From NCBI GenBank assembly GCA_036169595.1, contig CM069770.1, forward strand, positions 62,001-126,000: DNA of 64,000 nucleotides, read 5' to 3'. A program made the position numbers and the translations under genes. The notes under the pieces were generated by a model. That model saw only the letters and a list, made by a program, of their open reading frames with translations. It did not search any database and was not told the origin of the DNA. Position 1 is the stretch's first letter. Every line of letters starts with the position of its first letter. Of the stretch, positions 5,543 to 59,617 are shown piece after piece. This stretch comes from Dictyostelium firmibasis. Lineage: Eukaryota; Evosea; Eumycetozoa; Dictyosteliales; Dictyosteliaceae.

Positions 5543-6052
5543 TAGGGTAGTGGTGATATTGAATGATCTTGATAAAGAGGCAGGTGTATTCAATGGTGGT
5601 GATGATGAAGAGGTAGTAGAAGTAGTATTGGTATTATTTAAAGAGAGTTTGTTATTGTGATGAAGAAGCAGGAGTATTGGATGATCATGATGAAGAAGCA
5701 GGAGTATTAGATGGTGGATCAAGAGGTAGTAGCGGTGGTGAAGCAGGAGTAGTGATGATCTTGATGAAGAAGCAGGATTATTGGAAGGTGATGGATGAAG
5801 AGGTAGTAGTAGTAGAAGTGTATTGGTATTATTTAAATCAAATAGATTTCTGAATTCAATATTTGACGATCCAAAAACGTATTAATGGGTGATGCATCAT
5901 CATCATTATCATATGAATAATTGTGATCTTCACTAACCATTTACAAATTGATCATCAATTTTCTCAAAACCAATATCAAAATCAAAGTCAAAATAATAAT
6001 AATCAAAACTAAAAACAATCCAGATGATAACCAGGATGTCTACGAAGACGAA

Positions 6053-6139
6053 GACGATGAAACAGAGATAGAGATTGGAATGAGGAACTATTTGATCAAA
6101 TAGTTCCTCAACCCAATCTTCCATCTCTGTTTCATCGTC
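6053..6139. repeat. Palindrome formed from the E1 acidic tail coding sequence
   Basis: An imperfect hairpin is centred on TTTGATCAAA, with arms GACGATGAAACAGAGAT and ATCTCTGTTTCATCGTC at the ends. The left arm is recognisable coding sequence for the C-terminal ETEIDWDEELFDQ tail of E1 (11505-11545). A coding segment has therefore been duplicated in inverted form. The same palindrome exists in the second X copy at about 38515-38600. Confidence 0.8.
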
Positions 6140-6822
6140 TTTATTGTATCAATATTTCAAATATAATACCATTTGTCAAAAAAAATAAAAAAATAAAAAA
6201 ATAAAAAAAAATAAAAAAAATAAAAAATAAAAAAAAATAAAAAAAAATAAAAAAATTAATTTTAATTAAAATATGAGATTTTTATTTTTAAAAAACACAA
6301 ATTTTAATTTTTTCGATTTAAATTTTATATTTTTTAATTAAATTATGCCGTTTCGCGTGCAGATCGATTATTTTTGCTGAACAAACCAATGCACCAAAGA
6401 CACCATAAAAATACTTTATTTCGGAGGGTATGGATAATAATAATATTAATAAAAATAATAATAGTTACAATAATATTATTACATGTGATACGGATGCTAA
6501 TGTCACCGATTCACCTTCAAGCCTTCAATTAAACAATAGTTTCAATCATGGGAATATTAATACAGAAAGTCAACCTTTAAATTCAAATTTTAGCACAAAC
6601 AGTACTAAATTTAATAAAAGTAGTGGCGACAGTGACAATGACGGTTGTTATGAATTAACACCAACTCATACACCAACTCAAACACCAACCCATTCTCCAA
6701 TCCATTCACCAAGCATTCACGAAGCTTCAAACCCACCATTATATATATATAACAACAATTATAATAATAATAATAATATTAACAATAATAATAATAATAA
6801 TACTAGTAATAGTAGTAATGTT

Positions 6823-7025
<203 letters not shown>

Positions 7026-7286
7026 CCTGTTAAATAATAACAACAATAATAATTCAACTTTAACCATCGAATATTTTAATAGATTGATTTATACTCAAAG
7101 AGATGGAAAGCATTTTTGTAACATTTGTAGAGTTGATAATAATAATAAAAGTTGTCGTGGTGGTTCTCAAAACAAAAAAGGTATAAGAAGACACATAAAA
7201 AAACAGCATTCTTCATTAATAACTCTTTCTAATAAAGACCTTCTAGAAAGAAAATATTTTTTAAATAGTAATAATAATGGTGTAAA

Positions 7287-7462
<176 letters not shown>

Positions 7463-8023
7463 TTGATGGCGTTAATACAAGTAATGATGTTGGTGGATTG
7501 ATTGTTACTAGAAGCTATTGTAGTGATAGCATCAATAGTAGTATTGTCAGTAATGGTAGCAATTCCAATAGTAGACAAAGAACAAATAAAATCAATAATA
7601 AATATTCCACACTTTAAGTTAAACAATTGGTAGTTAAAAGTGATGACAAGTATGGTTGTTCAGAATGTAGTGAATATAAATTGGTAAAGTATACCGATAC
7701 AATATATGACCACATTAGAAAACATCATGAACCACAATTAGAAATAATAAGAGTTGGTATCCAGGAAGAATCAAAATCAGAGGTAGAGGCAAAAAACCAC
7801 CAAAATAATGAAACATATGTTCCAAAACACTCAAAAAATATAGTGTGCGACCATACAAATTGTGGTTCGATAATTACATATTCAAATGCCCAAAATCATT
7901 ACAAAAAACTACATCATTATGGGTTCCCAAATGATAAAATAAATTGTAGGAGGTGCAAGGATATTGAATGTCTTGCTCGAATAAGTGAGGAAAAGAAATT
8001 AATCGAAGATCGTTCTAGTTCAA

Positions 8024-16935: not shown

Positions 16936-17937
16936 ATGTCTACCACCGATAATAATAACCACGCTAGTAGCTCTACCCAAAATAATTCTAATTCTTATGA
17001 AACTAGAATGAAATCGCTTGAGGATCAAATCTCCAATCTCTCATTAGCTTTTACAAGATATATGAAAGAGCCAATCAGAGAGTCGTACCGTAACTCTGAT
17101 AATCAACGTTCTAATGATGAATCTGAAACTGAGAATGAACAAGGTGATGATGAATCTATCGATCCAGTCGATGTTCCAACTGATTATCAACTATCAGAGT
17201 CATTGCTTGCTAACTACAAACATTTAATCAATAATCAAGGTTTGTTAGTTGAAGAAAAATGTATCCTTAAGAAGAACGAAATCGCTGATGTTAACAAAAT
17301 CTTTTGCTTTCCATCTAACTTCCAAGTGAATGTAGCTCCATTCGGTACTCCAGAAGGTATATCTGCTTCATCGAATCTCAAGAACAATGATACCGATTTG
17401 TACATTGTGGAAAAGAGAATCAATGATATTTTGAAACCAATACTTTTACTTTCAAGTATGATATCATCCGATAAAACTGATATCGACACCGAACTCTTAG
17501 GTTACTTAGCTGACTCGTCAATTCAGTTAGTTGTTAGTGCTCAAGCAACATTAGCTCGTGTTCGACGTAACAACATCTCAAAAGAAATCTACGGTTCCGA
17601 AGTGGTTCAACCAATCAAGATCAAAGACACTCCAAAGATGTTTGATGATACCGAATCTGAGCGTGTAAGAAAGTTGGCAAAGTCAATTAGAAAGAACAAT
17701 GAAGCCAAACAATCATTGCTAAAAGTTAACAATCAATCAAAGTCAAACTTTAAGAAATCAACCAACACAGGTGGTAATAACACTACTGGAAGTAGTAGTT
17801 CGAATAACAAGTCCAGTAGTGGGAGTAATGGCCGATCCAATAACTTCAATGGATCCCAAAGTAATGCTGCATCAGGTAGCAGCAATACCAAGTCTGGAAA
17901 CGGTACCAATTATCGTTTTCAGAAGAACAAGAAGTAA
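16936..17937 (+). CDS. DIRS B ORF1 (gag-like), 333 aa
   Basis: This is nearly identical to the DIRS A ORF1, with the same start context after the leader and the same Gly/Asn-rich basic tail. It is open from start to stop. Confidence 0.8.
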   Translation: MSTTDNNNHASSSTQNNSNSYETRMKSLEDQISNLSLAFTRYMKEPIRESYRNSDNQRSNDESETENEQGDDESIDPVDVPTDYQLSESLLANYKHLINNQGLLVEEKCILKKNEIADVNKIFCFPSNFQVNVAPFGTPEGISASSNLKNNDTDLYIVEKRINDILKPILLLSSMISSDKTDIDTELLGYLADSSIQLVVSAQATLARVRRNNISKEIYGSEVVQPIKIKDTPKMFDDTESERVRKLAKSIRKNNEAKQSLLKVNNQSKSNFKKSTNTGGNNTTGSSSSNNKSSSGSNGRSNNFNGSQSNAASGSSNTKSGNGTNYRFQKNKK

Positions 17938-17987: not shown

Positions 17988-18838
17988 TTGGGTCTTCCAA
18001 ACTTTTGTCAAGAAGTAGTAAACGGATTAAAGGTTCCACTACTTTCAAACTTCAAACCGATGCTGAACCCAATTCCGATTTCAATTTCAGAGGGTCCGAA
18101 ATCAGATTGTATCACAAACGAAGTACAAGATTTATTAAAAGACAGTGCAATAGAACAGGTACTTCCAAACCGTCACTCCCAACTCGTTTTTTACTCCAAC
18201 GTGTTTACGGTTCCAAAAGCTGGAACGAATTTACATCGTCCAGTACTAGATCTAAAAAGGTTAAACCTTTTTATCAAAAACCAATCATTCAAGATGGAAG
18301 GTCTAAAGAATCTGTCTTCAATGGTAAAGCAAGGTTACTACATGGTAAAACTCGATATCAAGAAAGCTTATCTCCATGTATTAGTCGACGAAAGTTATCG
18401 AGATTTATTCCGATTCGTTTGGAAAGGAACTCATTACAGATGGAGAACAATGCCATTCGGGTTATCGTCAGCTCCTCGAATCTTTACAATGTTAATGAGA
18501 CCAGTACTCCGAATGTTAAGAGATATCAACATTTCCGTAATCGCCTACTTAGACGATCTTCTAATAGTTGGTTCAACAAAAGAAGAATGTTTAAACAACC
18601 TCAACCAAACAATGAATCTGTTAGTCAAACTCGGATTCAAGTTAAATTTAGAAAAGAGTGTTCTCGAGCCAACTCAATCAATAACGTTTCTAGGATTACA
18701 AATCGATTCAATATCAATGAAGTTACTTGTTCCAAAAGAAAAGAAGAAGAGTATCATCAAAGATATCAGGAACTTTCTAAAACTCGAAACTTGTACTCTA
18801 AGAAAGTTAGCTGGTTTAAAAGGAAAACTGATTGCATT
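17988..18838 (+). CDS. DIRS B reverse transcriptase, N-terminal part
   Basis: This reverse transcriptase region contains the YLDD motif. It runs up to the insertion point of Harbinger H2 and continues at 22199. Confidence 0.75.
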
Positions 18839-40617: not shown

Positions 40618-41170
40618 CATCATCATCATCATCGTCGTTAACTTCTGTAGTTGGTAATGGATTTGCTATTGAATTTGTTGGTTGGAATAGTGTTGTATAT
40701 TCAAAATTATCAGGATTAAGATGTTTCTCTGAATATTTATTGTTTCTTGATGAAGTAGCCAACAAACCAGAGTAATCTTTTACAGTGTGTGCAATCTTTG
40801 ACATATAGTTAGTTCTTGTCATTTGTTGAATGGATGAATCTTCTGCATCAGGTCCGTACCGATTTTTATTTGTAGCCCGATCCCAAATTAATTTATTCAA
40901 GTAATGTTTACACTCGGTTGCAAAGTTAGCAAGACTTTCCACAACCACATCAAACTCATCGCCCAACCAGTCTGCAAAATCACCCACATGACAAATAAAT
41001 ATATGGGTATATGTTGAAATAATTTCTCTTGTTGTTTGGTCTTTGTAGATTTCAAGGGCCAAATTACCAAATACAGATGAAAATGATAACCAACTATCAG
41101 AATCCACTCTTTTCTTTTTATTGGACAGTAATGTAATCAACGCAAACATTTGCTCCCAGAGCTTAGAAAT
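40618..41170 (-). CDS. Y1 protein, exon homologous to Y2 exon 3
   Basis: The exon begins SKLWEQMFALITLLSNKKK and keeps the helical pattern WLSFSSVFGNLALEIYKD ... ICHVGDFADWLGDEF ... YMSKIAHTVKDYSGLL. It then runs into an Asp run where X is inserted. The acceptor AG is at 41171-41172. No break seen within this piece. Confidence 0.6.
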
Positions 41171-41258
41171 CTGTTTATGGATAAGATTATATTGTTAATA
41201 TATATATATATATATATATATTCCCAACTATTATTACAATCAGAGTAAAAACAATTAC

Positions 41259-42083
41259 CTTTGATTTATGCGGATTTCTAGAATGTTTTTCGACAATCTC
41301 CATCAACTTTCTAAATTTAAATAGTATTCTTATCAATTCATTATACTTTATTCTAGACTTTGAAAAGTTGGTATGTAATTGGCCAATAGAACCATCAGAA
41401 GGTTTAATCAACTTGATCTTACATTTTTGTGTTAAAAATGCCTCCAACTCTCTCCTATACTCACTTTTACATGATGGATGTCCACTAATTCGAGTAACTT
41501 CACCATCTTCACAAATCAATTTAAAAAAGTGTTTTATCAACGCCTGGACCATGTGCAGAAAATCAGGAACTATTTTTTCTAAGGGTATCGGTAAAATTGG
41601 TCTACCTCTTTGTCCTCTATACTTGGCTTTCCCGGCATTTTCTGAACGTAGTGGTGGTGTGGTTTCATACATTTTGTAAATGTTACGGTATTGAAATTTT
41701 TTAAAAGTATTTATTTCATGTTTAGTACAGTAACACCATATACACCTGTATGTGGATTGCCTTTTCCATACAGTGTATAGGCCAAGGTAGTTGATCAGAA
41801 AAGCAAGATCAGCTACCAGTACAAATTGAAATGTATAATCGATGTTTTGGTTTGGTATTGGTGATTTAATTACAAATGAATTAAAGATGTTTCGACGATC
41901 ACATTCCTTGGTCATTAATTTCAAATCTTTTTTCATTAGTTTTAGTTGTGGTGCAAGCATTTCTGGCTCTTCATTACCTTTGTATACCAAAAATTCATAT
42001 GAATCATATGGTGATTTAGAAAGTGATGTTTTCTTTGAACCGTAAACCAACTGCTTCGGCTGTGTCGTTTGTAACATCCACAA
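41259..42083 (-). pseudogene. Y1 transposase core
   Basis: This is homologous to Y2 exon 2: SKSPYDSYEFLVYKGNEE, LVADLAFLINYLGLYTVWKR, YRCIWCYCTKHEIN, RGRPILPIPLEKIVPDFLHM and RIKYNELIRILFKF. The first acidic box (IVDVTND) lies in another frame at about 42080-42095, so there is a frameshift near 42060. A GTAATT donor follows at 41258. The adjoining intron carries an (AT)n tract. Confidence 0.6.
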
Positions 42084-43151
42084 TCATTCTTCTAAAATGT
42101 TGCAACTCGATGTTACATCTTCTTTTCACTCTATTTAGCGAAAAACTGTTTGACATACGCATGCTAGATCTAAATGATTCCCAATTTTTATCAACTATTC
42201 CATGTATCAACTTCATACATGCTACTGTTTGAATGTTCAGGTGACTTGAATCAATTAATGCAGTTTGATTTACCTCCAAACGATTCTGATTTCTTTCACG
42301 TAAAACCAACTCTTTACTACAACCTAGACAACCAACCTCTTCATTATTGGCCAAATCTAAATGGTGCTTTGTATCTTTTACTTGGCAAAGTTTTTGTATG
42401 AAACAACTACGTTACAACCTGTATGGATGCATGCCTTTCGCTGACGAATACCATCAACACCATTTTCATTTACAACCACTGGTGGAGTTATTTGCTGTCT
42501 TGGTGGGTTTGTATCATATCCTCTTTGAAGATTACGATTAGATGGAATAGAATAATACAAACAAACACTGCATTCCACTGTATGGTCGTTATTTATTGGA
42601 TGAAGTCTTTTTTCGTGCTTGTTACGATAAATAGATTTTTTAAAACCTCTATCAACATCAGTATTATTGGCACAACCTTGGTGTCTACAAAAAAAACGAT
42701 TCAAATTATCATTCACTGTTCGAGTTGGTACTTCATCTTCACTTACATCAATATCTACTTCAACTTCAACTTCAACATCATCTTCATCATCATCATCACC
42801 ATCATCATCATCACCACCAACATTTGCAACTGGTACTCGACTTGTTGTTGGTTGTGTTGGTACCAGTAATTGAACATTTTCAAATTGCACTTGATTAGTT
42901 ACTATTGGATGTGTAGGCGCAGGGTGTGGAATATTATTTAAATGGCGATATGGGTGAAACCTTTGATTTGGAACGTAATTATCAGCAACCACGGCCAACA
43001 AATTTAAATAGTTCTGATTCTGGTCTCCATTATTGTGTTTTTGGTTTCCATCATTCATACCACCACTCAAACCAACATTCAAGAAAAAGAAAATTAAAAA
43101 AATTATAATGGAATTTATCAAGAAAAAATATTTAGAAATATTTAGAAACAA
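42016..43151 (-). pseudogene. Y1 zinc-finger region
   Basis: This is homologous to Y2 exon 1: FFCRHQGCANNTD, YRNKHEKRLHPIN, VECSVCLYY, CIHTGCNVVV, then in a second frame CLGCSKELV and IQTVACMKLIHGIVD. The frame changes near 42370. The acidic Asp/Glu/Val tract resembles the acidic linker of Y2. The likely start is MNDGNQKHNNG near 43060. Confidence 0.55.
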
Positions 43152-43614
43152 TAAAATTGTGGAACTATAATTATATGATAATAATACTAAAACAATTAAA
43201 TAATAATATACTAGGGAAAATTAATAAAAAATAGTTAAAAAAAAAAAAAACTGAAAACAAACCAACCGACAATAATTTGGGCAAATTAAAACAAATTTTT
43301 CAAAAAAAAAAAAAACAATCTAATCAAACACCAACTCACAAATCAAATCAAGTTTATTTTAATCAAATCAAATCAAGTTTATTTTAATCAAATCAAATCA
43401 TTATTTTTCATTAAAAAAAAAAAATTAAATAAAGTTTAATGCACCTCATATTTATTACTATTAATTTTTTTGAATGAGAGGGAAACTACGAATGTTAGGT
43501 TGAATATGCAGTTTTCTTAGTGTGTCATGTAAAAATTTCAATTGAAAAAAGTGGGGGGGTGGGGGTATTTTCCCACATTAATTTACCCCCACGGAAACTA
43601 CGATAATTTGCAGT
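43152..43614 (-). other. Y1 5' terminal region
   Basis: This A/T-rich non-coding end of Y1 holds two tandem copies of a 25-base unit built from AATCAAATCAAGTTTATTTT (about 43340-43400). Next comes a G-run and C-run segment near the terminus that pairs with the C-rich left end at 32256-32276. Confidence 0.55.
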
Positions 43615-43722
43615 GATAAAATCACCATGAAGGTCCGCTCGAACATAGATTTTTGGATTTTTTTTGGGATCTAGATCGACCTTGTCGATATATCCAAAAT
43701 GCAGCTCCTTATTTATCTCTTT

Positions 43723-44449
43723 TTACGCGAATATTTCTACATGTTGAGAAGGCTTCTCTATAAACCTAGGAACGTTAAAATCAGTCTTAAATTGAAAGCA
43801 CTTTTTTTTGGGGTTCCAATCCTCTATATAGGTTTTTATGATTTGATCTGCCGTGTGGTCAGATTGAGTTGAAACAGAGGCCTGTAGAACTATCTGATCG
43901 ATACTCTCTAAAAGATTCCTCTTCTCCTGAGTTATACATTCAGCTTGAGCGTTTTTTACCTGCTCTATTTTCTCTGCCGTCCCCTCTATTTTGACGTCTC
44001 CAAGCTTTAATCGAAAGAGGAGCTTACAGGTCAGGGTAAAGAGCGGAATAACTACTGTTAAGTAGCTGAATATTTTGAGGGCGCAAAATACAATTTCTTG
44101 AATCTGAGTGTCTTGAGTTTCCCTTATTTCAACTCTTTTGAGATCTTTATCTTTGATAGAGCCTGAAAGAATGTATACATTTTTGCCCCAAAGGTGGAGA
44201 CATTTTTCTGCAAGTTCATCCGCAAAACTCACAAGTATATTGAGCTTGGGGTTCTCGATAATTGTGTAGAAGAAGCTGAACTGTTTTTTTTTATGGAGTT
44301 CCCTGTTTTACTGCAATGCGGTGTGCCTCTTTTTCAGCATATTTTTCTATCAGCTCTTTTGCTTCTTGATGCTCAGTTTGAAATGGTGGAATAGAGAAAC
44401 AGCTATAAAAGATCCATAGCAGACAAGCAGTTCCGAGTTTATTATCCAT
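43723..44449 (-). pseudogene. Bacterial membrane protein remnant (Chlamydiae-like)
   Basis: A small frame, 44449-44291 (52 codons, with a GGAG about 12 bases before its ATG), begins MDNKLGTACLLWIFYSCFSI. The reading then continues in the next frame with KKKQFSFFYTIIENP and the long part to 43723. That part has ILSGSIKDKDLKRVEIRETQ, a hydrophobic segment (FCALKIFSYLTVVIPLFTL), and a charged helical C-terminus. One lost base near 44295 would explain the two frames. The hydrophobic block after RETQ resembles hypothetical proteins of Chlamydiae (perhaps DUF648-like), from memory and not checked. Alternatively these are two overlapping genes. Confidence 0.55.
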
Positions 44450-44721
44450 AATATGTAATAACTCCATTATTAATTTGATTTGAAGTATATAATCTATTAT
44501 TTTGATTTATGCTTTAATATCGAATTAATTCAATTTAGGATTTATTTCAATGCAAATAATTATTAAAATTTATTAATTAATTTAATAATTATAAGCTTGG
44601 TAAGAACTAAAATGTGAGATTTTTAAGAAGAGTAGAGCCTTTTATCGATGCCCAAAAAGAGTATTTGACTATAGTGCAAGCGTGTAGAACAAAGTCTTAT
44701 GCAAACGTAATGAAATGTGAA
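44450..44721. other. A/T-rich spacer in the bacterial segment, no gene seen
   Basis: There is no frame with coding character. The left half is very A/T-rich and the right half is mixed. The spacer separates the lipoprotein gene from the membrane protein remnant. Confidence 0.4.
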
Positions 44722-44744
44722 AGAGTAGAAAATTTCTCTACTCT
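44722..44744 (-). terminator. Possible bacterial terminator hairpin
   Basis: On the minus strand AGAGTAG and CTACTCT form a seven-base stem around a nine-base loop. It overlaps the stop codon of the lipoprotein gene and is followed by a short T-containing tail. The weak tail makes this tentative. Confidence 0.35.
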
Positions 44745-45235
44745 CGAGAAATAATTCTTGAGCGGCCTTTGCGATTATTACTTGATATCAACCATATTTT
44801 TTGGCCCTCTATAAAAAGAGGCTTTGGCCCTTGGATTACAGTTTTTGTCTCTCCATTATCTAGAGATATAATATACTCTATTGCAGCCTGTTTTTTTATT
44901 GATTTTTCAGAAAAAGCGCCGATTGTAGCCCCAAGGACTGCTCCAGCAACGGTCGATAGCGCATTTCCTGATCCATGCCCAAATTGAGATCCCAGAAGAG
45001 CCCCCCCAATTCCACCACCGATGCCACCTGCTTCATTATCTCCTAGATAATCACCCTCTTGTACCTGTATGTTGCGGGTCTTGGGAACAGTGCCAGAATA
45101 GGTTGTACTTGAACTTCCAATACTCTCTGCTGAGTAGACATCAGAGTCAATTTGACGTCCACAGCTGACAGTAAGGATAGGGATTACAAGAGCTAATAAC
45201 AGCACTTTAAGGAACTTTAGGAGCTTTTTTCTCAT
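44738..45235 (-). CDS. Glycine-zipper outer-membrane lipoprotein, 165 aa, bacterial type
   Basis: MRKKLLKFLKVLLLALVIP is followed by the lipobox LTVSC, a classical lipoprotein signal peptide that has no role in a eukaryote. The mature part has the Gly-rich double zipper GGIGGGIGGALLG ... GAVLGATIGAF and a beta-rich end (YIISLDNGETKTVIQGP, IWLISSN), as in SlyB/Pcp/17-kDa-antigen-type proteins of Gram-negative bacteria. The frame is open from ATG to TAG. It is the only gene of the segment that looks intact. Confidence 0.75.
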   Translation of the reverse strand: MRKKLLKFLKVLLLALVIPILTVSCGRQIDSDVYSAESIGSSSTTYSGTVPKTRNIQVQEGDYLGDNEAGGIGGGIGGALLGSQFGHGSGNALSTVAGAVLGATIGAFSEKSIKKQAAIEYIISLDNGETKTVIQGPKPLFIEGQKIWLISSNNRKGRSRIISRE

Positions 45236-45296
45236 ATTTCACCAAGGTTATAAATCGGAGTTTCACTCTTAATATAATTTTTTTGCAAGGGGTGAC

Positions 45297-45600
45297 TTAA
45301 TTGAGCTCTTCTTGGTACTCATGCATTCTTTGCAGATAGAATGGGAGAAGTTCGGGCCATGCTGATTCAATCCAAGATTTTAAGGGTTTTAACCTCTTTA
45401 TATCATTTGTTGTTATCTCTACAGCCGTAGCCTTTGAAAATTTTCCGATATCAATAATAAACGCTTTGTAGTGCCCATTCTGGTGTAGAAGAGCGATATT
45501 TCCATTTCGTATCAAAACCCCATCGAGATCTATAATTCCCTTTGAACGGATTTCAGCTAGAAGCGCAAAGAGCGAATCTACAATTTCCTCTCCATCTGCT
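45297..45600 (-). pseudogene. Kinase-like bacterial gene, 3' part
   Basis: The frame is open from the DIRS D junction to the stop at 45297: ADGEEIVDSLFALLAEIRSK, IIDLDGVLIRNGNIALL, KAFIIDIGKFSKAT and the C-terminus MHEYQEELN. DLDGVLIRNGN followed by IIDIGK resembles the catalytic and metal-binding loops of kinase-fold proteins. It is the downstream half of the gene that begins at 50747. The two halves join in frame when DIRS D and one copy of the repeated CTATTT are removed. Confidence 0.6.
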
Positions 45601-45823
45601 ATTTATATTATCATATATATATTTAAATTTATGAATATATTTATTTATTTGAAATTCCCAAATATTTAAGATAATTTTCAGAGAAATTCAAGAGAATTTT
45701 CTGGAGATATTTTAGCTCGAAAAAATTATTGAAAAAATGAAAAATTTCGAGTTTGAAAAAAGTTGCCACGTGTCACGCACCTATTTTTTGAGTTTTGCGA
45801 AATTTTTCAGAAAGTAAAAACAG

Positions 45824-45830
45824 TATAAAT
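45824..45830 (+). promoter_or_regulatory. TATA-like box of the DIRS D left repeat
   Basis: TATAAAT is in the conserved promoter position of subfamily-1 repeats. The CACGTG block is at 45763-45775. Confidence 0.45.
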
Positions 45831-46012
45831 AGTGGCACTAAATATTGAAAACAATTTGATTTATTTTATTTGGGAATTCCTCCTATATATATTTAAGATA
45901 CACACACATAATTTATACAAATAATTAAAAAAAAAAAAAAAAAAAAATTCTTTTATTAATTTAATACTTTTTCTCTATCTCTATAAAAATAATTTTAGAT
46001 ATCAATAAAATA

Positions 46013-47009
46013 ATGTCTACCACCGATAATAATAACCACGCTAGTAGCTCTACTGATAATAATTCTAATTCTTATGAAACAAGAATGAAATCACTTGAGG
46101 ATCAAATCTCCAATCTCTCATTAGCTTTTACAAGATATATGAAAGAGCCAATCAGAGAGTCGTACGGTAACTCTGATAATCAACGTTCTAATGATGAATC
46201 TGAAACTGAGAATGAACAAGGTGATGATGAATCTATCGATCCAGTCGATGTTCCAACTGATTATCAACTATCAGAGTCATTGCTTGCTAACTACAAACAT
46301 TTAATCAATAATCAAGGTTTGTTAGTTGAAGAAAAATGTATCCTTAAGAAGAACGAAATCGCTGATGTTAACAAGATCTTTTGCTTTCCATCTAACTTCC
46401 AAGTGAATGTAGCTCCATTCGGTACTCCAGAAGGTATATCTGCTTCATCGAATCTCAAGAACAATGATACCGACTTGTACATTGTGGAAAAGAGAATCAA
46501 TGATATTTTGAAACCAATCCTTTTACTTTCAAGTATGATATCATCCGATAAAACTGATATCGATACCGAACTCTTAGGTTACTTAGCTGACTCGTCAATT
46601 CAATTAGTTGTTAGTGCTCAAGCAACATTATGTTCGTCGTAACAACATCTCAAAAGAAATCTACGGTTCCGAAGTGGTTCAACCAATCAAGATCAAAGAC
46701 ACTCCAAAGATGTTTGATGATACCGAATCTGAACGTGTAAGAAAGTTAGCAAAGTCAATTAGAAAGAACAATGAAGCCAAACAATCATTGTTAAAAGTTA
46801 ACAATCAATCAAAGTCAAACTTTAAGAAATCAACCAACACAGGTGGTAATAACACTACTGGAAATAGTAGTTCGAATAACAAGTCCAGTAGTGGGAGTAA
46901 TGGCCGATCCAATAACTTCAATGGGTCCCAAAGTAATGCTTCATCAGGTAGCAGCAATACCAAGTCTGGAAACGGTACCAATTATCGTTTTCAGAAGAAC
47001 AAGAAGTAA
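46013..47009 (+). CDS. DIRS D ORF1 (gag-like) region
   Basis: This is collinear with the ORF1 of DIRS A and B, with the same start context and the same basic Gly/Asn/Ser tail. It belongs to a fossil element and is described at the level of parts only. Confidence 0.75.
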
Positions 47010-47059
47010 ACTTACCAGTAGGTGGACGTCTCGTCCACTTCAAACAAGTTTGAAAAGAA

Positions 47060-48955
47060 TTGGGTCTTCCAAACTTTTGTCAAGAAGTAGTAAACGGATT
47101 AAAGGTTCCACTACTTTCAAACTTCAAACCGATGCTGAACCCAATTCCGATTTCAATTCCAGAGGGTCCGAAATCAGATTGTATCACAAACGAAGTACAA
47201 GATTTATTAAAAGACAATGCAATAGAACAAGTACTTCCAAACCGTCACTCCCAACTCGTTTTTTACTCCAACGTGTTTACGGTTCCAAAAGCTGGAACAA
47301 ATTTACATCGTCCAGTACTAGATCTAAAGAGGTTAAACCTTTTTATCAAAAATCAATCATTCAAGATGGAAGGTCTAAAGAATCTGTCTTCAATGGTAAA
47401 ACAAGGTTACTACATGGTAAAACTCGATATCAAGAAAGCTTATCTCCATGTATTAGTCGACGAAAGTTATCGAGATTTATTCCGATTCGTTTGGAAAGGA
47501 ACTCATTACAGATGGAGAACAATGCCATTCGGGTTATCGTCAGCTCCTCGAATCTTTACAATGTTAATGAGACCAGTACTCCGAATGCTAAGAGATATCA
47601 ACATTTCCGTAATCGCCTACTTAGACGATCTTTTAATAGTTGGTTCAACAAAAGAAGAATGTTTAAACAACCTCAACCAAACAATGAATCTGTTAGTCAA
47701 ACTCGGATTCAAGTTAAATTTAGAAAAGAGTGTTCTCGAGCCAACTCAATCAATAACGTTTCTAGGATTACAAATCGATTCAATATCAATGAAGCTACTT
47801 GTTCCAAAAGAAAAGAAGAAGAGTATCATCAAAGATATCAGGAACTTTCTAAAACTCGAAACTTGTACTCTAAGAAAGTTAGCTGGTTTAAAAGGAAAAC
47901 TGATTGCATTGAAAGATGCAGTAATACCATTCCGCTTGTACACTCGTCAAACAAACAAGTTTCATTGTCAAAGTCTGAAACTAGCAAATGGAAATTGGGA
48001 TCAATCATTTCCAATTTCTCCAGATGTCAAGAAAGAAATTTCAAATTGGTTAACTCTCTTAAACCAATGGAATGGAAAAGAAATAAGTCTGTTTCCAAGT
48101 TACGATTATGTTCTAACAACAGATGCATCAGAATCAGGTGCAGGTGCAACTTTAATGAAAGACAACAAAGTCATCAAAACTTGGTCGTTCCAGTGGTCAG
48201 AAGTCCAATCAAACATGTCATCGAATCGTCGGGAAATGCTTGCTCTACTAATGGCATTTCAAACTCTATGTCGGAAGTTAAACAACTGCAATCTAAAGAT
48301 TCAAACCGACAACACAACAACTCTCTCGTATGTCAATCGCCAAGGTGGTCAGATTCAAGATCTATCGATTCTCTTCGAACAGCTCTGGAAACAATGTCTC
48401 AAGAAGAAAATCAATCTGATCGGGGAACACATTCCAGGATTCTTCAATGTCAAAGCCGATCACCTCAGTCGTCTATCAGAGATGAATCACAAATCATCCA
48501 AGACGATCAAGAGTTACAACTGGCAACTCAAGAAAGAAGTGTTCAATCGAATTCAACTCCAATTCGGTCAAATTCAAATGGATCTATTTGCTTCACACTT
48601 CAACCATCAAACAATCAATTACTCAACCATGAAAATGAATGCTCTACAACTCGATTGGAGTCAGTGGAATCAATGTCTAGCGTTCCCACCTCCAATACTT
48701 TTGCCTTCTGTGATGGAGAAGATGAACTTATTGAGTTCGAAGATGGTTTCTATAATACTGATCTTCCCGATTTGGAGATCAGCAACTTGGTATCCGATGA
48801 TTCAAGCTCAAGTTCCTCGTCATCATCGCCATCTGTTTCCTCAAGTACTGGGTACGTTTCAAGAAGTATTGACAAAAGAATCGATAGAGTCAATACCAAT
48901 TCAAATTCAGCAACGATGGAAACTGGGGATTATTCGACTTTCCAATCTCATGTAA
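47060..48955 (+). CDS. DIRS D reverse transcriptase/RNase H, 631 aa
   Basis: This is the uninterrupted subfamily-1 polymerase frame in this window. The reverse transcriptase holds KLDIKKAYLHV and YLDDLLIVGS in the first third. The RNase H holds TTDASESGAGATL, IQTDNTTTL and NVKADHLSR. No clear ATG lies at the start, so the domain is defined from the conserved GLPNFCQEVV block. Confidence 0.8.
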   Translation: MGLPNFCQEVVNGLKVPLLSNFKPMLNPIPISIPEGPKSDCITNEVQDLLKDNAIEQVLPNRHSQLVFYSNVFTVPKAGTNLHRPVLDLKRLNLFIKNQSFKMEGLKNLSSMVKQGYYMVKLDIKKAYLHVLVDESYRDLFRFVWKGTHYRWRTMPFGLSSAPRIFTMLMRPVLRMLRDINISVIAYLDDLLIVGSTKEECLNNLNQTMNLLVKLGFKLNLEKSVLEPTQSITFLGLQIDSISMKLLVPKEKKKSIIKDIRNFLKLETCTLRKLAGLKGKLIALKDAVIPFRLYTRQTNKFHCQSLKLANGNWDQSFPISPDVKKEISNWLTLLNQWNGKEISLFPSYDYVLTTDASESGAGATLMKDNKVIKTWSFQWSEVQSNMSSNRREMLALLMAFQTLCRKLNNCNLKIQTDNTTTLSYVNRQGGQIQDLSILFEQLWKQCLKKKINLIGEHIPGFFNVKADHLSRLSEMNHKSSKTIKSYNWQLKKEVFNRIQLQFGQIQMDLFASHFNHQTINYSTMKMNALQLDWSQWNQCLAFPPPILLPSVMEKMNLLSSKMVSIILIFPIWRSATWYPMIQAQVPRHHRHLFPQVLGTFQEVLTKESIESIPIQIQQRWKLGIIRLSNLM

Positions 48956-48992
48956 AGTCAATAATTAAAACAAGTAAATCGAGTACTTCGAA

Positions 48993-49929
48993 TTTGTTTA
49001 TGAACTCTTGGCAGCCATCAACCTTAAAGGTCTATGATTCAAACTACTCAAAGTTCCATTTCTTTTGTATTTTAAATCGTTTGGATCCATCAAAGATTAC
49101 TCTGGTAGTTTTTATGGACTATTTGACCTATTTATTCAAGCTACAACCTCCGTTGGCTTATTCAACAATTAACAGTCATCGTTCAATGCTTAATCAGTTG
49201 CTCATTCTTAGAAATCAATCTGAAATCGTTAATGATCCGTTCATATCAAGAATAATGACTGGTATTCACAAGTTACGTCCAAGTAACTCAAAGTATAATG
49301 AAATCTGGAATGCAAATCAAGTTTTCAAATACTTATCTACAATCAACGTTTATCCAAAGTTTACATACTCTGTTCTTCTACATAAGACTTTTGTGCTTTG
49401 TAAAATGTTTGGTTTAGCAAGGTCATCTGACTTGGTCAAATGGTCTTACAAGAATTTAATAATCACTGAACACTCAATTAAAGCTCCTGTTATAAATGCA
49501 AAAGAACAAAGGAATACAAAGAATGCTGATATTTCCATTTTAGAATTAACTTCACTAGATGAATCAAATGCAAGTATTTGTCCAGTTCTCCATCTTTCAA
49601 GATACCTCAAACACTCTGAACAAAGAAGAACTGTTTCATCTGGTGACTCGGTTTTCATTCTCCGTGATGGTAATCCAGTTTCAGTCGAATATATAAACTC
49701 TATAGTTTTATCAATACTTTCAAAATCAGGTATTGATATTACAAAGTTCAAATCTCACTCTACTCGTTCCGCTATGGCTTCTCTCTTGTTGTCCAGCAAT
49801 GTTCCATTCCATGTGGTCAAGAAACTCGGTCGTTGGAAATCAAATGATACAGTTGATAACTTTTATGACAAGAAAATCATTGGTGAAAAATCTGGTGGTT
49901 TCTTAAATAATGTAGTCCAACTTTCATAA
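48993..49929 (+). CDS. DIRS D tyrosine recombinase domain
   Basis: The recombinase core has a SAM-like N-terminal part (SWQPSTLKVYDSNYSKF) and catalytic ARSSDL, HSTRSAM, GRWKSND and NFYDKK boxes. The frame extends upstream to 46843 over the polymerase gene in another frame, the overlap known for DIRS-1. Confidence 0.8.
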
Positions 49930-50334
49930 ATTTAAATATATATATGATAATATAAATTAAAAATTTAAATAATTAAATTATATTTTATATTAAATATATA
50001 TATTTAAATTGGTCCCACCCGCCCTCCCTTAGTCGGAATTCCATATAAATCAAATTGTTTTCAATATTTAGTGCCACTATTTATACTGTTTTTACTTTCT
50101 GAAAAATTTCGCAAAACTCAAAAAATAGGTGCGTGACACGTGGCAACTTTTTTCAAACTCGAAATTTTTCATTTTTTCAATAATTTTTTCGAGCTAAAAT
50201 ATCTCCAGAAAATTCTCTTGAATTTCTCTGAAAATTATCTTAAATATTTGGGAATTTCAAATAAATAAATATATTCATAAATTTAAATATATATATTTAA
50301 TATAAAATATAATTTAATTATTTAAATTTTTAAT

Positions 50335-50747
50335 TCTATTTTCATATTGAAGCTGAAAAAGGGTCTCTTTGAGAGAGATCGGCACTCTTTTTTGCAGGGC
50401 GAAGAGAGCACTATTGAGATCAATAGTCTCTTTTTTCCCTCGTTCATCGAGTACTGTGACGATGAGAGGGCTCTTTTTTTTCTCTTCTAAGGGACTATAT
50501 TACAGAAAAATAAGGCCTGTTTGATCTTTAAGTTCAGTAGCCGCAAGACAGACACTCTGAAAAAGAGATCTCCTTTTTTTTTCTGTTTAGGAATATGCAC
50601 TATTTTTAGGACATGATGCCCATCTAAGGAAGCAAAGACGCGAGCCTGTTTTCCTTTTCCAATATAGATATATGGCGTTTTAATGAGGTTTAGATCAAGA
50701 GGTTCTTTGATATAGGAGAATTTCATATATGAAGAGGCGCTTTGCAT
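50335..50747 (-). pseudogene. Kinase-like bacterial gene, 5' part
   Basis: ATG at 50747 gives MQSASSYMKFSYIKEPLDLN, then YIYIGKGKQARVFASLDGHH and VLKIVHI. IGKGKQARVF followed by VLKIV resembles a glycine-rich loop and the conserved lysine of kinase-like folds. The frame breaks near 50487-50500, then continues as KKKSPLIVTVLDERGKKETI to the DIRS D junction. The combined protein would be about 240 residues. Kinase activity is inference only. Confidence 0.6.
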
Positions 50748-50852
50748 ACAGCTCTATAAGAAGTCGTTTTTTTCTCTCTTTTTGTAGCTTCTGGTAGGAA
50801 GAGAAGGAGAAAAAAATCATGAGGAGCAGAACTATGCATTTCATGAAGTCCT

Positions 50853-52223
50853 CTATATAGCTTTAGTAATAGTACTAAAATGGTGCATTCGCGCAAAAGC
50901 TGGGCAGGGTAAAAGAAGCTCTTGAAAGGCTCCTTCGCCAATTTTCTTACCCTCATCGAGAACAATAATGCGATCGGCCTCTTCTATGGTACTTAATCTA
51001 TGAGCGATGATGATCTGTGTGACATCCCCCTTCATTTCGTAAAGAGACTGCTTGATGTGATGTTCTTCTGCGATGACGGTATGGTATCCAAGTGGCAGGT
51101 CGCGAATGAAATTATCAGCATGAGCATTTTTACAGGCCTCTTCAACATCGCTATCGCTATAGTCTTGTCCAAATCGAATATTTTCTAAGATCGTATCTTG
51201 AAATAGAAAGGGTCTCTGTGGAACAACAGAAATTCCTTGCCGCAATCCCTTTTGAGAAAAACTATCTAATGGGCTTCCATCAATAGTAATAGAGCCCGAA
51301 TGCGGGGTAAAAAGATTGGTAAGAAGAGATACAATAGTCGATTTTCCGCTATCGATTGCCCCAACAATTGCCACCATCTCGCCCGAGCTATAGTAAATGA
51401 GACATCACTGAGAACTGGTTTTGATTCAGTATACCCAAAAAAGACAGACTGAAAGGTGATCTCTTTTGTGAGTAGAACTTCGCTTCTTTTCTGATTCTCT
51501 TCGATATCAGCTCTCTCTGGTGGTATAGCGAGCACTTCCCACATCCGCTCACAAGCGGCAATACCGCACTGAATCCGGCCATTCTCCTCGGCAAATTTCT
51601 TTATAGGCTCATAGACAGATAAGAGTCCGCAAAAAAAGAGAACCTCATAGAGCGGAAGCTGCAGTCCCCATAGACCAAAAATGAGCGCTGTAATGAGACA
51701 GAGCATTCCAACAATATGTAGAATTGGTCTTGAGCTGATATCATAGCGAGCACTTCGAAGCTCTAGTTTTGCAAGCTGATTATTCTGTTCTTCATATTTT
51801 TCCATAGAAAATGTCTCCATAGAAAAGAGTTTAATCGTCTGAATGCCACTAATAAACTCAATAAGTATGGATGAGAAATTCTCCTGCCTCTTCTGGATCT
51901 CTTTTGAAATCTTCTTAATTCTTCGGGCAAGAAAAATAATGGGGGCTACTACAAAGGGGAGTCCAAAGAAGATGCTGTAGAGAGCTGCCAGCTTATTGAA
52001 AAACAGAGAAGGAGAGTTGAAAAAATGGTAAATGGAGTCTGAATATAGTTTATCACCATAGAGTTGATTCCATCGGCAATCACATACCCATCTTGAACGG
52101 TTCTTGATGAGAGAGATTCAATATTATGCCGAAGGTAGAAGGAGAGAGGAAGTTTTTGAATATGGTCAAAGTATTTCTTTCGCAGATCTTGACTTATCCG
52201 TATTGAAAATGCTTTTGCGCTAA
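50853..52223 (-). pseudogene. ABC exporter (MsbA-like), decayed
   Basis: The transmembrane half is recognisable: RKKYFDHIQKLPLSFYLRHN, then SRTVQDGYVIADG, FLARRIKKISKEIQKRQENF and SGIQTIKLFS. It is followed by the nucleotide-binding half with Walker A (GAIDSGKST), Q-loop (VVPQRPFLFQDTILENI) and H-loop (IIAHRLSTIEEADRI). Two frameshifts (near 52000 and 51385) are visible. A stretch is missing after TVIAEE (near 51065), removing the LSGGQ signature, Walker B and D-loop. The N-terminal end is cut by DIRS fragment E. In bacteria this family exports lipids or drugs across the inner membrane. This copy cannot work. Confidence 0.8.
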
Positions 52224-52544
52224 ATTTATATTATCATATATATATTTAAATTTATGAATATATTTATTTATTTGAAATTCCCAAATATTTAAGATAATTT
52301 TCAGAGAAATTCAAGAGAATTTTCTGGAGATATTTTAGCTCGAAAAAATTATTGAAAAAATGAAAAATTTCGAGTTTGAAAAAAGTTGCCACGTGTCACG
52401 CACCTATTTTTTTGAGTTTTGCGAAATTTTTCAGAAAGTAAAAACAGTATAAATAGTGGCACTAAATATTGAAAACAATTTGATTTATTTTATTTGGGAA
52501 TTCCTCCTATATATATTTAAGATACACACATAATTTATACAAAT

Positions 52545-52587
<43 letters not shown>

Positions 52588-52762
52588 CTTTTATTAATTT
52601 AATACTTTTTCTCTATCTCTATAAAAATAATTTTAGATATCAATAAAATAATGTCTACCACCGATAATAATAACCACGCTAGTAGTTCTACCGAAAATAA
52701 TTCTAATTCTTATGAAACAAGAATGAAATCACTTGAGGATCAAATCTCCAATCTCTCATTAG
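52224..52762 (+). mobile_element. DIRS fragment E (subfamily 1), left end only
   Basis: It holds the left terminal repeat, the leader with a long A run, and the first codons of ORF1 from 52651. It ends at the Skipper repeat. It is inserted in the ABC exporter remnant. No matching right end is found in the window. It is a fossil fragment, young by similarity. Confidence 0.8.
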
Positions 52763-53141
52763 TGTTGGGGTTTCCCCTCGTTTACTTATTCTAACTATAT
52801 AACTATTAACGCTGTACCTGTATGTCCACTAACTACTCTATATTATAATCATACAATCTACATCCTAATTTCTATCTAATTTTATTTATATAATTAAAAC
52901 AAATAAATATAAAAATTCTTACAATAAAGGTAAAGTTTCAGTGTGGGAAAAACTAGCGTAATGATTTATTTTAAAAAATTATAAAAACATCTTCGACTTT
53001 TTCGAAGAGAAAAAAATAACAAAATTTCGACAATTGTAAAAATTTAATTTAATTTTTACGAACTTCGTTTTGAGAACATTATTTCATTATTTTGTGTCTT
53101 GAGTTACTATTTCTTTTAATAAAACTAGTTAAACTCTAACA
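52763..53141 (-). repeat. Skipper LTR
   Basis: This LTR is 379 bases with TG...CA ends. The inverted partner is at 60319-60700. The pair is in opposite orientation, so the two do not bound a single element. Confidence 0.8.
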
Positions 53142-53174
53142 CCTTCCCCTCCCCTCTGAAGGAGATTATGGGCT

Positions 53175-58012: not shown

Positions 58013-58879
58013 ATTTGAATATATTTTTATGAATCTTGTAGAAATCTTTCATCTTAGACTACTTCCTATTTTGTATAATATTGAGATTAATAGAAATTGT
58101 AGATCGTATATTAATTTAAAATTTAAAAAATAAAAAAAAATAAAAAAAAAAAAAATAAAAAAACAATTTCGAATTTTTACGATCTACAATTTCTATTTAT
58201 ATTTTTTTTTTTTTTTATTTTCTCATTTAATTTTTTTTTTTTAATATTTTTTAATATTTAAGGTCTTAAATACAAAATCAATTTATATTTTTTTTTTTAT
58301 TTTTTTATATTTTTATCTATTTATTATTTTTTTTTTTAAAATATAAAAAAAATTTACATGCAAAAAAAAAAAAAAAAAATTATTATAATATTTACCATTT
58401 ACAATTTCCTATTTATATTATATTTTTTTATATTTTATTATTTAATTTTTTTTTGAATAATTATTAATACATAATAAAAATTTACATATAAAAAAAAAAA
58501 AAAAAAAATTTTTATTAATAAAAAAAAAAAAAAAAAAAAAAAAATCACCATTTAAAATGACATTATTACTTTTTTTTCATAGTTATTGATTAAAAACATC
58601 TAAAACACTAATATAACCCAAGAAGATACCTTATCATAATGAAAGGGCCTGTTGTTCTGTTATGACATGGTTATTTTGGAGTGTTGATAAGGCTTTTCAA
58701 AACTCCGCAAGATCTAAAAAAATAAAAAAATAAAAAAAATATTTTTTTAATTTAAATTTTAATTTTTTTTATTTTTATTTTTAAATTAATTTTTTCCCGG
58801 GTTATATAACAAATAAAATCGAATGCACCAGATTATTGGTCATTTTAATATGAACTTATCAATACTAAAAACCGGAGGG
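58013..58879 (-). other. E1-prime 5' terminal region, no gene seen
   Basis: This A/T-rich stretch with long homopolymer runs is collinear with 3255-4120. A short block TAGAAATTGTAGATCGTA occurs twice with opposite orientation near 58090 and 58180, giving a stem-loop that E1 also has near 3940-4040. Confidence 0.55.
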
Positions 58880-59617
58880 TTTAATATAAAGCCTAATCTT
58901 AGCGAATTTTTGAGAAATGGTTGTGCCAATGACAAAACCGCACCACACCTGAATTGCTACGACAAAGAGGTGGAGGGTGAAGAGTTAAAAAGTATATTAA
59001 GAAGAGTGCATAAGGCACACAAAGAGGCCGAGAGAGCGAGTGACCTCCCAGTCATTATCATGGATCTGGTTGAAGCTGTCACTAACTCCCAAAAGATTAG
59101 CAGTTCATTTGAGACTGATAAAAACCTTGATAGAGTGTACAACTTTATTAATATCTACAGTCCACCTCACTACAATGGTAAAACAGTAGAGGAGAAATTT
59201 AATAAGGACTGTGAGAACAAGGTGAAAATCTGCAAAGAGATGCTGATTGCTTCAGTCCATCCACAATTCGCCTCTGAAGTTAGAGCACTAATCTCCAATG
59301 AAAAGTGTATCGACGCTTCGCGTAGCAAAATATCTGACTTCATTTTCAATAATGAAATAAGATTAAAAAGCCCAAAACCAATCCAACCAGCCGAGAGAAA
59401 GGCGATGCTAGAAGGCATTAGAAAAAAGGGTAGTGGTTGTGGTCCAAATGTTAATCTTACAACAATCAATGACAACATATTGTTGTTTAGAAATAATAAT
59501 AATGTATGTCTCAATTGTGGAAGAAATCATTTAGTTAAAGAATGTAGAGCTCAGTCGAGTAATGAAAAGGTTCAACTCGACAAGAGTCAAAGTCCATTCA
59601 AAAAAATGACCAAATGA
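58880..59617 (+). CDS. Skipper gag fragment
   Basis: This is a capsid-like helical protein with a CCHC zinc knuckle (CLNCGRNHLVKEC) near the C-terminus, typical for Ty3/gypsy gag. The natural start is not present here. The first codons read out of the E1-prime terminus are unrelated. It is a fossil fragment. Confidence 0.7.
   Translation, partial: FNIKPNLSEFLRNGCANDKTAPHLNCYDKEVEGEELKSILRRVHKAHKEAERASDLPVIIMDLVEAVTNSQKISSSFETDKNLDRVYNFINIYSPPHYNGKTVEEKFNKDCENKVKICKEMLIASVHPQFASEVRALISNEKCIDASRSKISDFIFNNEIRLKSPKPIQPAERKAMLEGIRKKGSGCGPNVNLTTINDNILLFRNNNNVCLNCGRNHLVKECRAQSSNEKVQLDKSQSPFKKMTK

Follow-up and report, generated by a model that had tools for sequence, protein, structure and literature searches.

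The window considered here is the whole 64,000-nucleotide stretch C6:62001-126000 of the Dictyostelium firmibasis genome (31,455,843 bases in 12 contigs, designated C1, C3 and so on), and it raises the question of how bacterial-type DNA came to lie in two places among the DIRS-1 retroelements of an amoeba. A sequence-only reading had proposed that an intracellular, Chlamydiae-like bacterium was the source of an old transfer, and this origin is supported by protein matches of 86-87% identity, partly shared gene order, and an empty/filled transposon site. The bacterial stretches are very probably nuclear-integrated chlamydial DNA that has been duplicated among repeat regions and is decaying, with no present function. 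Their extent, first put at about 3.9 kb, was underestimated. DNA of this kind is present on at least five contigs, in regions rich in repeats.

Bacterial-like DNA was called by a two-state Markov segmentation trained on pieces from C3 and C5 and on the window's own host DNA. The C3 training pieces include the copy of the window segment itself, so that in the window, as in the C3 and C5 pieces, the segmentation fixes edges and is not independent proof. In the window, the calls at C6:105611-107599 and 112335-114221 (window 43611-45599 and 50335-52221) agree almost to the base with the edges proposed earlier, 43615-45600 and 50335-52223. The GC content of the pieces is 36-41%, higher than the 29% of the whole window, as had been claimed; 1-kb windows span 15-42%, with the maximum in the ATP-binding cassette (ABC) exporter gene. 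The segment carries four genes, three of them broken and two invaded by retroelements, as first described, and the lipoprotein gene is the only intact one (Table 1). The long terminal repeat (LTR) family that truncates the second DIRS-1 also flanks bacterial pieces on C3, C1, and C5.

Table 1. The bacterial-type segment and the elements inserted in it, in window positions.
Feature	Position	Strand	Evidence
Metallophosphoesterase gene, membrane-anchored type, chlamydial (very probable origin); N-terminal part, broken	43621..44470	-	C1 relative with Metallophos PF00149
Glycine-zipper lipoprotein gene, intact, 165 aa	44738..45235	-	PF05433, E 4.6e-6
'Kinase-like' gene, C-terminal piece, cut by DIRS-1	45297..45603	-	44% identical homologue in chlamydial locus L032
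DIRS-1 retroelement inside bacterial gene	45604..50335	+	Empty site on C3; long element frames
'Kinase-like' gene, N-terminal piece, broken	50336..50747	-	Contiguous with 45297-45603 on C3
MsbA-like ABC exporter, frame-broken, truncated by second DIRS-1	50853..52225	-	ABC_tran, E 7.7e-13
Second DIRS-1, left end only	52225..52766	+	On C3 the ABC gene goes on here, with kdsC beyond it
LTR-like sequence truncating second DIRS-1	52767..53154	.	Sequence comparison

The relation between the two stretches is clarified by C3:4912982-4917967, an uninterrupted copy of the window segment, identified by a genome-wide DNA search, in which both halves are adjacent and DIRS-1 is missing. One half differs from the window by 4 substitutions in 1,980 aligned bases, the other by 3 substitutions and 3 gaps in 1,877. 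The C3 copy is 1.1 kb longer: it takes in the beginning of the ABC exporter gene as well as a broken kdsC, and ends at an LTR. Its five adjacent genes are thus kdsC, the ABC exporter, the 'kinase-like' gene, the lipoprotein gene, and the metallophosphoesterase remnant. The left flank is also common to both contigs (window 40819-45616, about 99.5% identical, with 150 bp more on C3). The two stretches of the sequence-only reading are real but form a single interrupted segment; judged from the aligned copies, they are two halves of one putative chlamydial chromosome piece split by DIRS-1. The empty DIRS-1 site on C3 shows, at the assembly level, that the bacterial DNA was chromosomal and already present in duplicate when DIRS-1 interrupted the copy on C6.

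A second empty/filled pair is provided by C5 and C7, which are empty where C1 has DIRS-1 in the phosphoesterase gene. The third junction, at window 52225 against C3, is only half-visible. DIRS-1 sits between target T and C in both complete pairs and at the half-visible junction, and no target-site duplication beyond 1-3 ambiguous bases is found in the two complete comparisons and the one half. Elements that carry a tyrosine recombinase, such as DIRS-1, are expected to insert without a target duplication. Such sites allow events to be ordered inside centromere-like repeats. Tested at the assembly level, the host junctions comprise two contigs with shared and unshared host flanks and an empty/filled DIRS-1 site.

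These junctions bear on whether the assembly joined reads of a contaminating or resident bacterium to DIRS-1 repeats, which is judged very unlikely. DIRS clusters are difficult to assemble, the culture was fed on E. coli, dictyostelids do host chlamydiae, and the case against such an artefact is itself made at the assembly level. However, the genes are broken, diverged copies share transposon junctions, and empty/filled sites occur at two loci. None of 20,395 records of E. coli, the food species, matches the C3 copy closely, and the best matches elsewhere stay below the near-100% identity that, together with intact genes, would mark a laboratory contaminant. The two bacterial-type 16S hits reported fall on C12, identified as the mitochondrion by its COX1 gene, and on C10, a weak control in which 5 of 64 candidates were scored; 16S was dropped as a donor marker for this reason. 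The available text of the published assembly paper also reports constant genomic DNA coverage and the removal of bacterial contigs.

If the DNA is nuclear, its source has to be found in the genes themselves. A chlamydial origin is supported by lipoprotein and kdsC best matches of 86-87% identity, by closest named hits that are chlamydial, and by gene order that partly recurs. Chlamydiota relatives are the closest across independent loci (kdsC, phosphoesterase, ABC exporter, UPF0137, and recC). The kdsC piece on C3 has two matches, the better of which (87%) is named 'HAD hydrolase family protein [Chlamydia sp.]'. The lipoprotein, correctly recognized earlier as a glycine-zipper protein, has 14 matches among 542 candidates. 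Its best match, P0001, shares 86% identity with it across 90% of the query, or 84% when the two are aligned in full, and the two are joined at 100/100 in a tree whose family overall mixes Chlamydiota and Proteobacteria. Lipoprotein relatives occur in 29 of 232 Chlamydiota genomes, the set used for all presence counts, with a best identity of 52%; the genome of P0001 is seemingly outside this set. The 86-87% matches are situated on contigs of 1,543,817 bp (lipoprotein) and 273,024 bp (kdsC). P0001, P0017, and P0018 are all on a contig of 1,543,817 bp, presumably the same one.

The 'membrane protein remnant' of the sequence-only reading is a real remnant, but of a gene in the calcineurin-like phosphoesterase family, of which it retains the N-terminal part. 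Over 599 bp (43621-44219) it shares 99% DNA identity with C1:4740184-4740782 and C7:18289-18887, and its protein is 88% identical to the C1 gene, which has a Metallophos domain downstream. The remnant itself has no significant domain in a Pfam search of the window pieces that considered hits up to E 1. The C1 piece has 153 protein matches; among the 120 listed, P0017 and P0018 are 59% and 49% identical. Six rows among the matches listed carry an organism name, and the best four are Chlamydiota, followed by Dependentiae and Babeliales (E 9.5e-16 and 2.7e-11). Across the protein searches, P0015 and P0019 carry the name Chlamydia sp. In a quick tree of 65 rows, several of them short (5 from this genome and 60 of the 120 listed matches), the 5 pieces of this genome and P0017, P0018, and P0019 form an 8-row set with a Shimodaira-Hasegawa-like approximate likelihood ratio test (SH-aLRT) value of 100.

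The MsbA-like exporter was also rightly named. ABC_membrane is found on the C3 copy, and the best NCBIfam models are MsbA-type, scoring below their cut-offs; a relative of the window piece is present in 218 of the 232 Chlamydiota genomes (best identity 60%). The 'kinase' label finds no Pfam family and was abandoned: one search of the pieces gave none up to E 1, and another gave at most a single match, below threshold, to a family of no relevance. A homologue of this conserved gene lies beside the lipoprotein gene in one chlamydial genome (L032/L048), directly upstream as in the window; the other loci fetched around lipoproteins contained no match to the 'kinase-like' gene. In chlamydial locus L058, 1 of 20 fetched ABC loci, kdsC comes before the exporter gene and the two share one strand, which is the arrangement on C3; most loci were fetched with flanks of about 1.5 kb. 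Outside the window, at C6:36201-40377, recC is divergent from an LplT/Aas-type gene. The same recC/LplT-type layout occurs in 6 of 15 fetched chlamydial recC loci, and recC relatives, of low identity, in 121 of the 232 Chlamydiota genomes.

The same comparisons address the suggestion that the chlamydial genes came by way of a different intracellular bacterium, which had acquired them earlier. Lipoprotein relatives in Holosporaceae and Caedibacter, and an insertion-sequence-type transposase in the C3 cluster, fit such a donor, and the lipoprotein was rejected as sole proof of Chlamydiae because its family extends to these groups. However, several independent loci, among them recC, kdsC-ABC, and parA-UPF0137, favor Chlamydiota, and some are arranged as in chlamydial genomes; a non-chlamydial carrier is scarcely credible.

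Beyond the window, other chlamydial-type pieces are located in repeat-rich regions of C1, C3, C5, C6, and C7, with strong bacterial matches at 4.65-4.74 Mb of C1, 4.91-4.94 Mb of C3, 4.12-4.27 Mb of C5, 0-131 kb of C6, and on C7. Markov flags cover 42,007 bp in 18 segments of the 253,790 bp examined, or 40,065 bp in 15 segments once three doubtful ones on C6 are dropped: 5954-6687, which has a published telomere repeat, and 17197-17897 and 18123-18629, both with 25% GC. The 253,790 bp were chosen around hits, so the 40-kb figure is not a genome-wide rate. Phosphoesterases are in tandem on C1 and occupy two places on C7. The UPF0137 match has an E value of 1.5e-62, and none of 14 control genomes, which include no chlamydiae, was positive. 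UPF0137 is the family of a chlamydial plasmid protein, and a parA-UPF0137 pair is reminiscent of chlamydial plasmids. Weaker genome hits in the phosphoesterase and parA searches appear to resemble host phosphatases and ATPases.

Several of these fragments merit description in their own right. The parA and UPF0137 genes are paired on C7 (L019:2841-3671 and 7013-7801), with a second pair at C1:4647270-4648699. Pieces of recB and recD are beside a chlamydial phosphoesterase at C5:4121755-4127000 (L022:4755-10000), where the bacterial block extends past its examined DNA, and at C1:4730001-4733062 (L016:1-3062). Upstream of the window, C6:35022-40427 (L026/L027) is a 5.4-kb bacterial-like block with recC, the Aas/LplT-type gene, and further frames; weak additional recC family hits are at C1:4723077-4723550, C5:4139666-4140226, and C5:4268170-4268646. 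Bacterial-like frames, one with DUF4116 repeats, are common to C3:4931843-4936095 (L014:1843-6095) and C6:127276-130753, and a DDE_Tnp_1_3 transposase of the bacterial insertion-sequence type adjoins them. About 20 codons of that same insertion-sequence frame also adjoin a retroelement frame at window 58817-58880. On C3, L011:576-1441 contains ankyrin-repeat frames, host or bacterial, one of which continues into LTR-like sequence. The segment at C6:5954-6687 (L023) has telomere-like repeats, with a single exact occurrence, at C6:6183-6203, of the 21-base repeat published for D. firmibasis, about 6 kb from the contig start; an exact double copy of the other published telomere repeat was found in none of 92 loci.

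The fragments could still be bacterial genes retained for use by the amoeba, for which the intact lipoprotein frame and the recD open frames of 456 aa on C5 and 565 aa on C1 would speak. However, three of the four window genes are broken and the DNA is located in repeat-rich regions. Between the C1 and C5 recD copies, 12 codons differ in the open frame over 1,363 aligned columns, 11 nonsynonymously and 1 synonymously, with 6 gap positions and with 5, 4, and 3 differences at codon positions 1, 2, and 3. In this one gene, the copies change without visible constraint, as unconstrained sequence does. An ancient functional transfer is hardly to be believed.

Decaying chlamydial inserts could have arisen in the following manner. 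The donor would be an intracellular Chlamydiota lineage close to present dictyostelid symbionts, whose DNA may have been released from lysed bacteria inside an ancestor of this Dictyostelium. The released DNA could then have joined at a break in gene-poor, DIRS-rich chromatin, where inserts would be harmless. Recombination between shared repeats would subsequently have copied it between chromosome clusters. At the assembly level, DIRS-1 entered the C6 copy after integration and duplication.

A number of observations weigh against this account. Transposons that arrived later conceal the original points of integration, so that the entry step is inferred. The junction evidence is of assembly level. 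The placement of the donor near dictyostelid symbionts is likely, resting on the 1.54-Mb contig and the published 1.5-Mb symbiont genomes and not on a DNA match. Some segments, including C3:4931843-4936095 and C7:1-1149, have no chlamydia-specific match, and one hit to the parA family (C1:437933-438148, E 5.3e-9), host or bacterial and interrupted by two stops, lies away from the repeat regions. The lipoprotein family is present in Holosporaceae, Caedibacter, and other intracellular bacteria. As for gene order, 19 of the 20 ABC loci lack kdsC within their fetched flanks, and L060 and L062 have the 'kinase-like' gene near the ABC gene in a different orientation.

The locus offers a record, in principle datable, of past Chlamydia-like infection in a lineage that the available text of the assembly paper does not describe as infected. 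It also offers a naturally occurring example of DNA passing from endosymbiont to nucleus, in a genus that is tractable and has sequenced living symbionts. Small-RNA clusters of insects store viral fragments, and dictyostelid centromere clusters might by analogy be archives of past infections, in which DNA trapped in DIRS-1 chromatin is copied and may yield small RNAs against the bacterium's genes. This idea, itself improbable, arises because the chromosome 1 DIRS-1 region of D. firmibasis is reported, in the published text available, to be rich in small RNAs, a profile that also makes infection memory cheap to examine.

Capture from an intracellular compartment has familiar parallels. Nuclear copies of mitochondrial DNA (NUMTs) are similarly captured passively, whereas the donor here is no organelle but a bacterium. 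DIRS-1 clusters act as centromeres in D. discoideum (PMC12324515). In the published assembly of D. firmibasis TNS-C-14, DIRS1 regions are mapped to 4.5-4.8 Mb on chromosome 1 and to the ends of chromosomes 2-5, and two small contigs are mainly DIRS1; the word root 'chlamyd' is absent from the paper. Among the titles and abstract openings listed from the open-licence literature, none described chlamydial DNA from the nucleus of a dictyostelid, which is weak evidence of absence. A tick-Rhabdochlamydia genome paper, in the text available, reports no chlamydial DNA in the tick genome (PMC6490308). The NCBI taxonomy has entries for Chlamydiota endosymbionts from D. discoideum and from two further species, and Chlamydia-like symbionts of the Dictyostelium isolates GS8b and M4B have complete circular genomes of 1.5 Mbp, according to a preprint (PMC12324515). 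The latter represent the probable donor lineage, which the 1,543,817-bp contig of several best hits fits. Unlike these living symbionts of other isolates, the DNA described here consists of fragments in a nuclear assembly with best protein identities of 86-87%. Chlamydial genes are also found in the nuclei of plants and algae (PMC2376095), where single genes are retained, in contrast to the multi-gene, pseudogene-like blocks of D. firmibasis. The closest likeness is with Wolbachia inserts in animal nuclei, such as those of Brugia malayi (PMC3849323), where parts of the genome of an intracellular bacterium likewise lie duplicated in the chromosomes of the host; in D. firmibasis they are decaying as well. 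Nuclear endosymbiont DNA is already known from Wolbachia; in D. firmibasis, the donor very probably belongs to the Chlamydiota, the recipient is an amoeba, and the pieces are spread among centromere-like DIRS-1 clusters.

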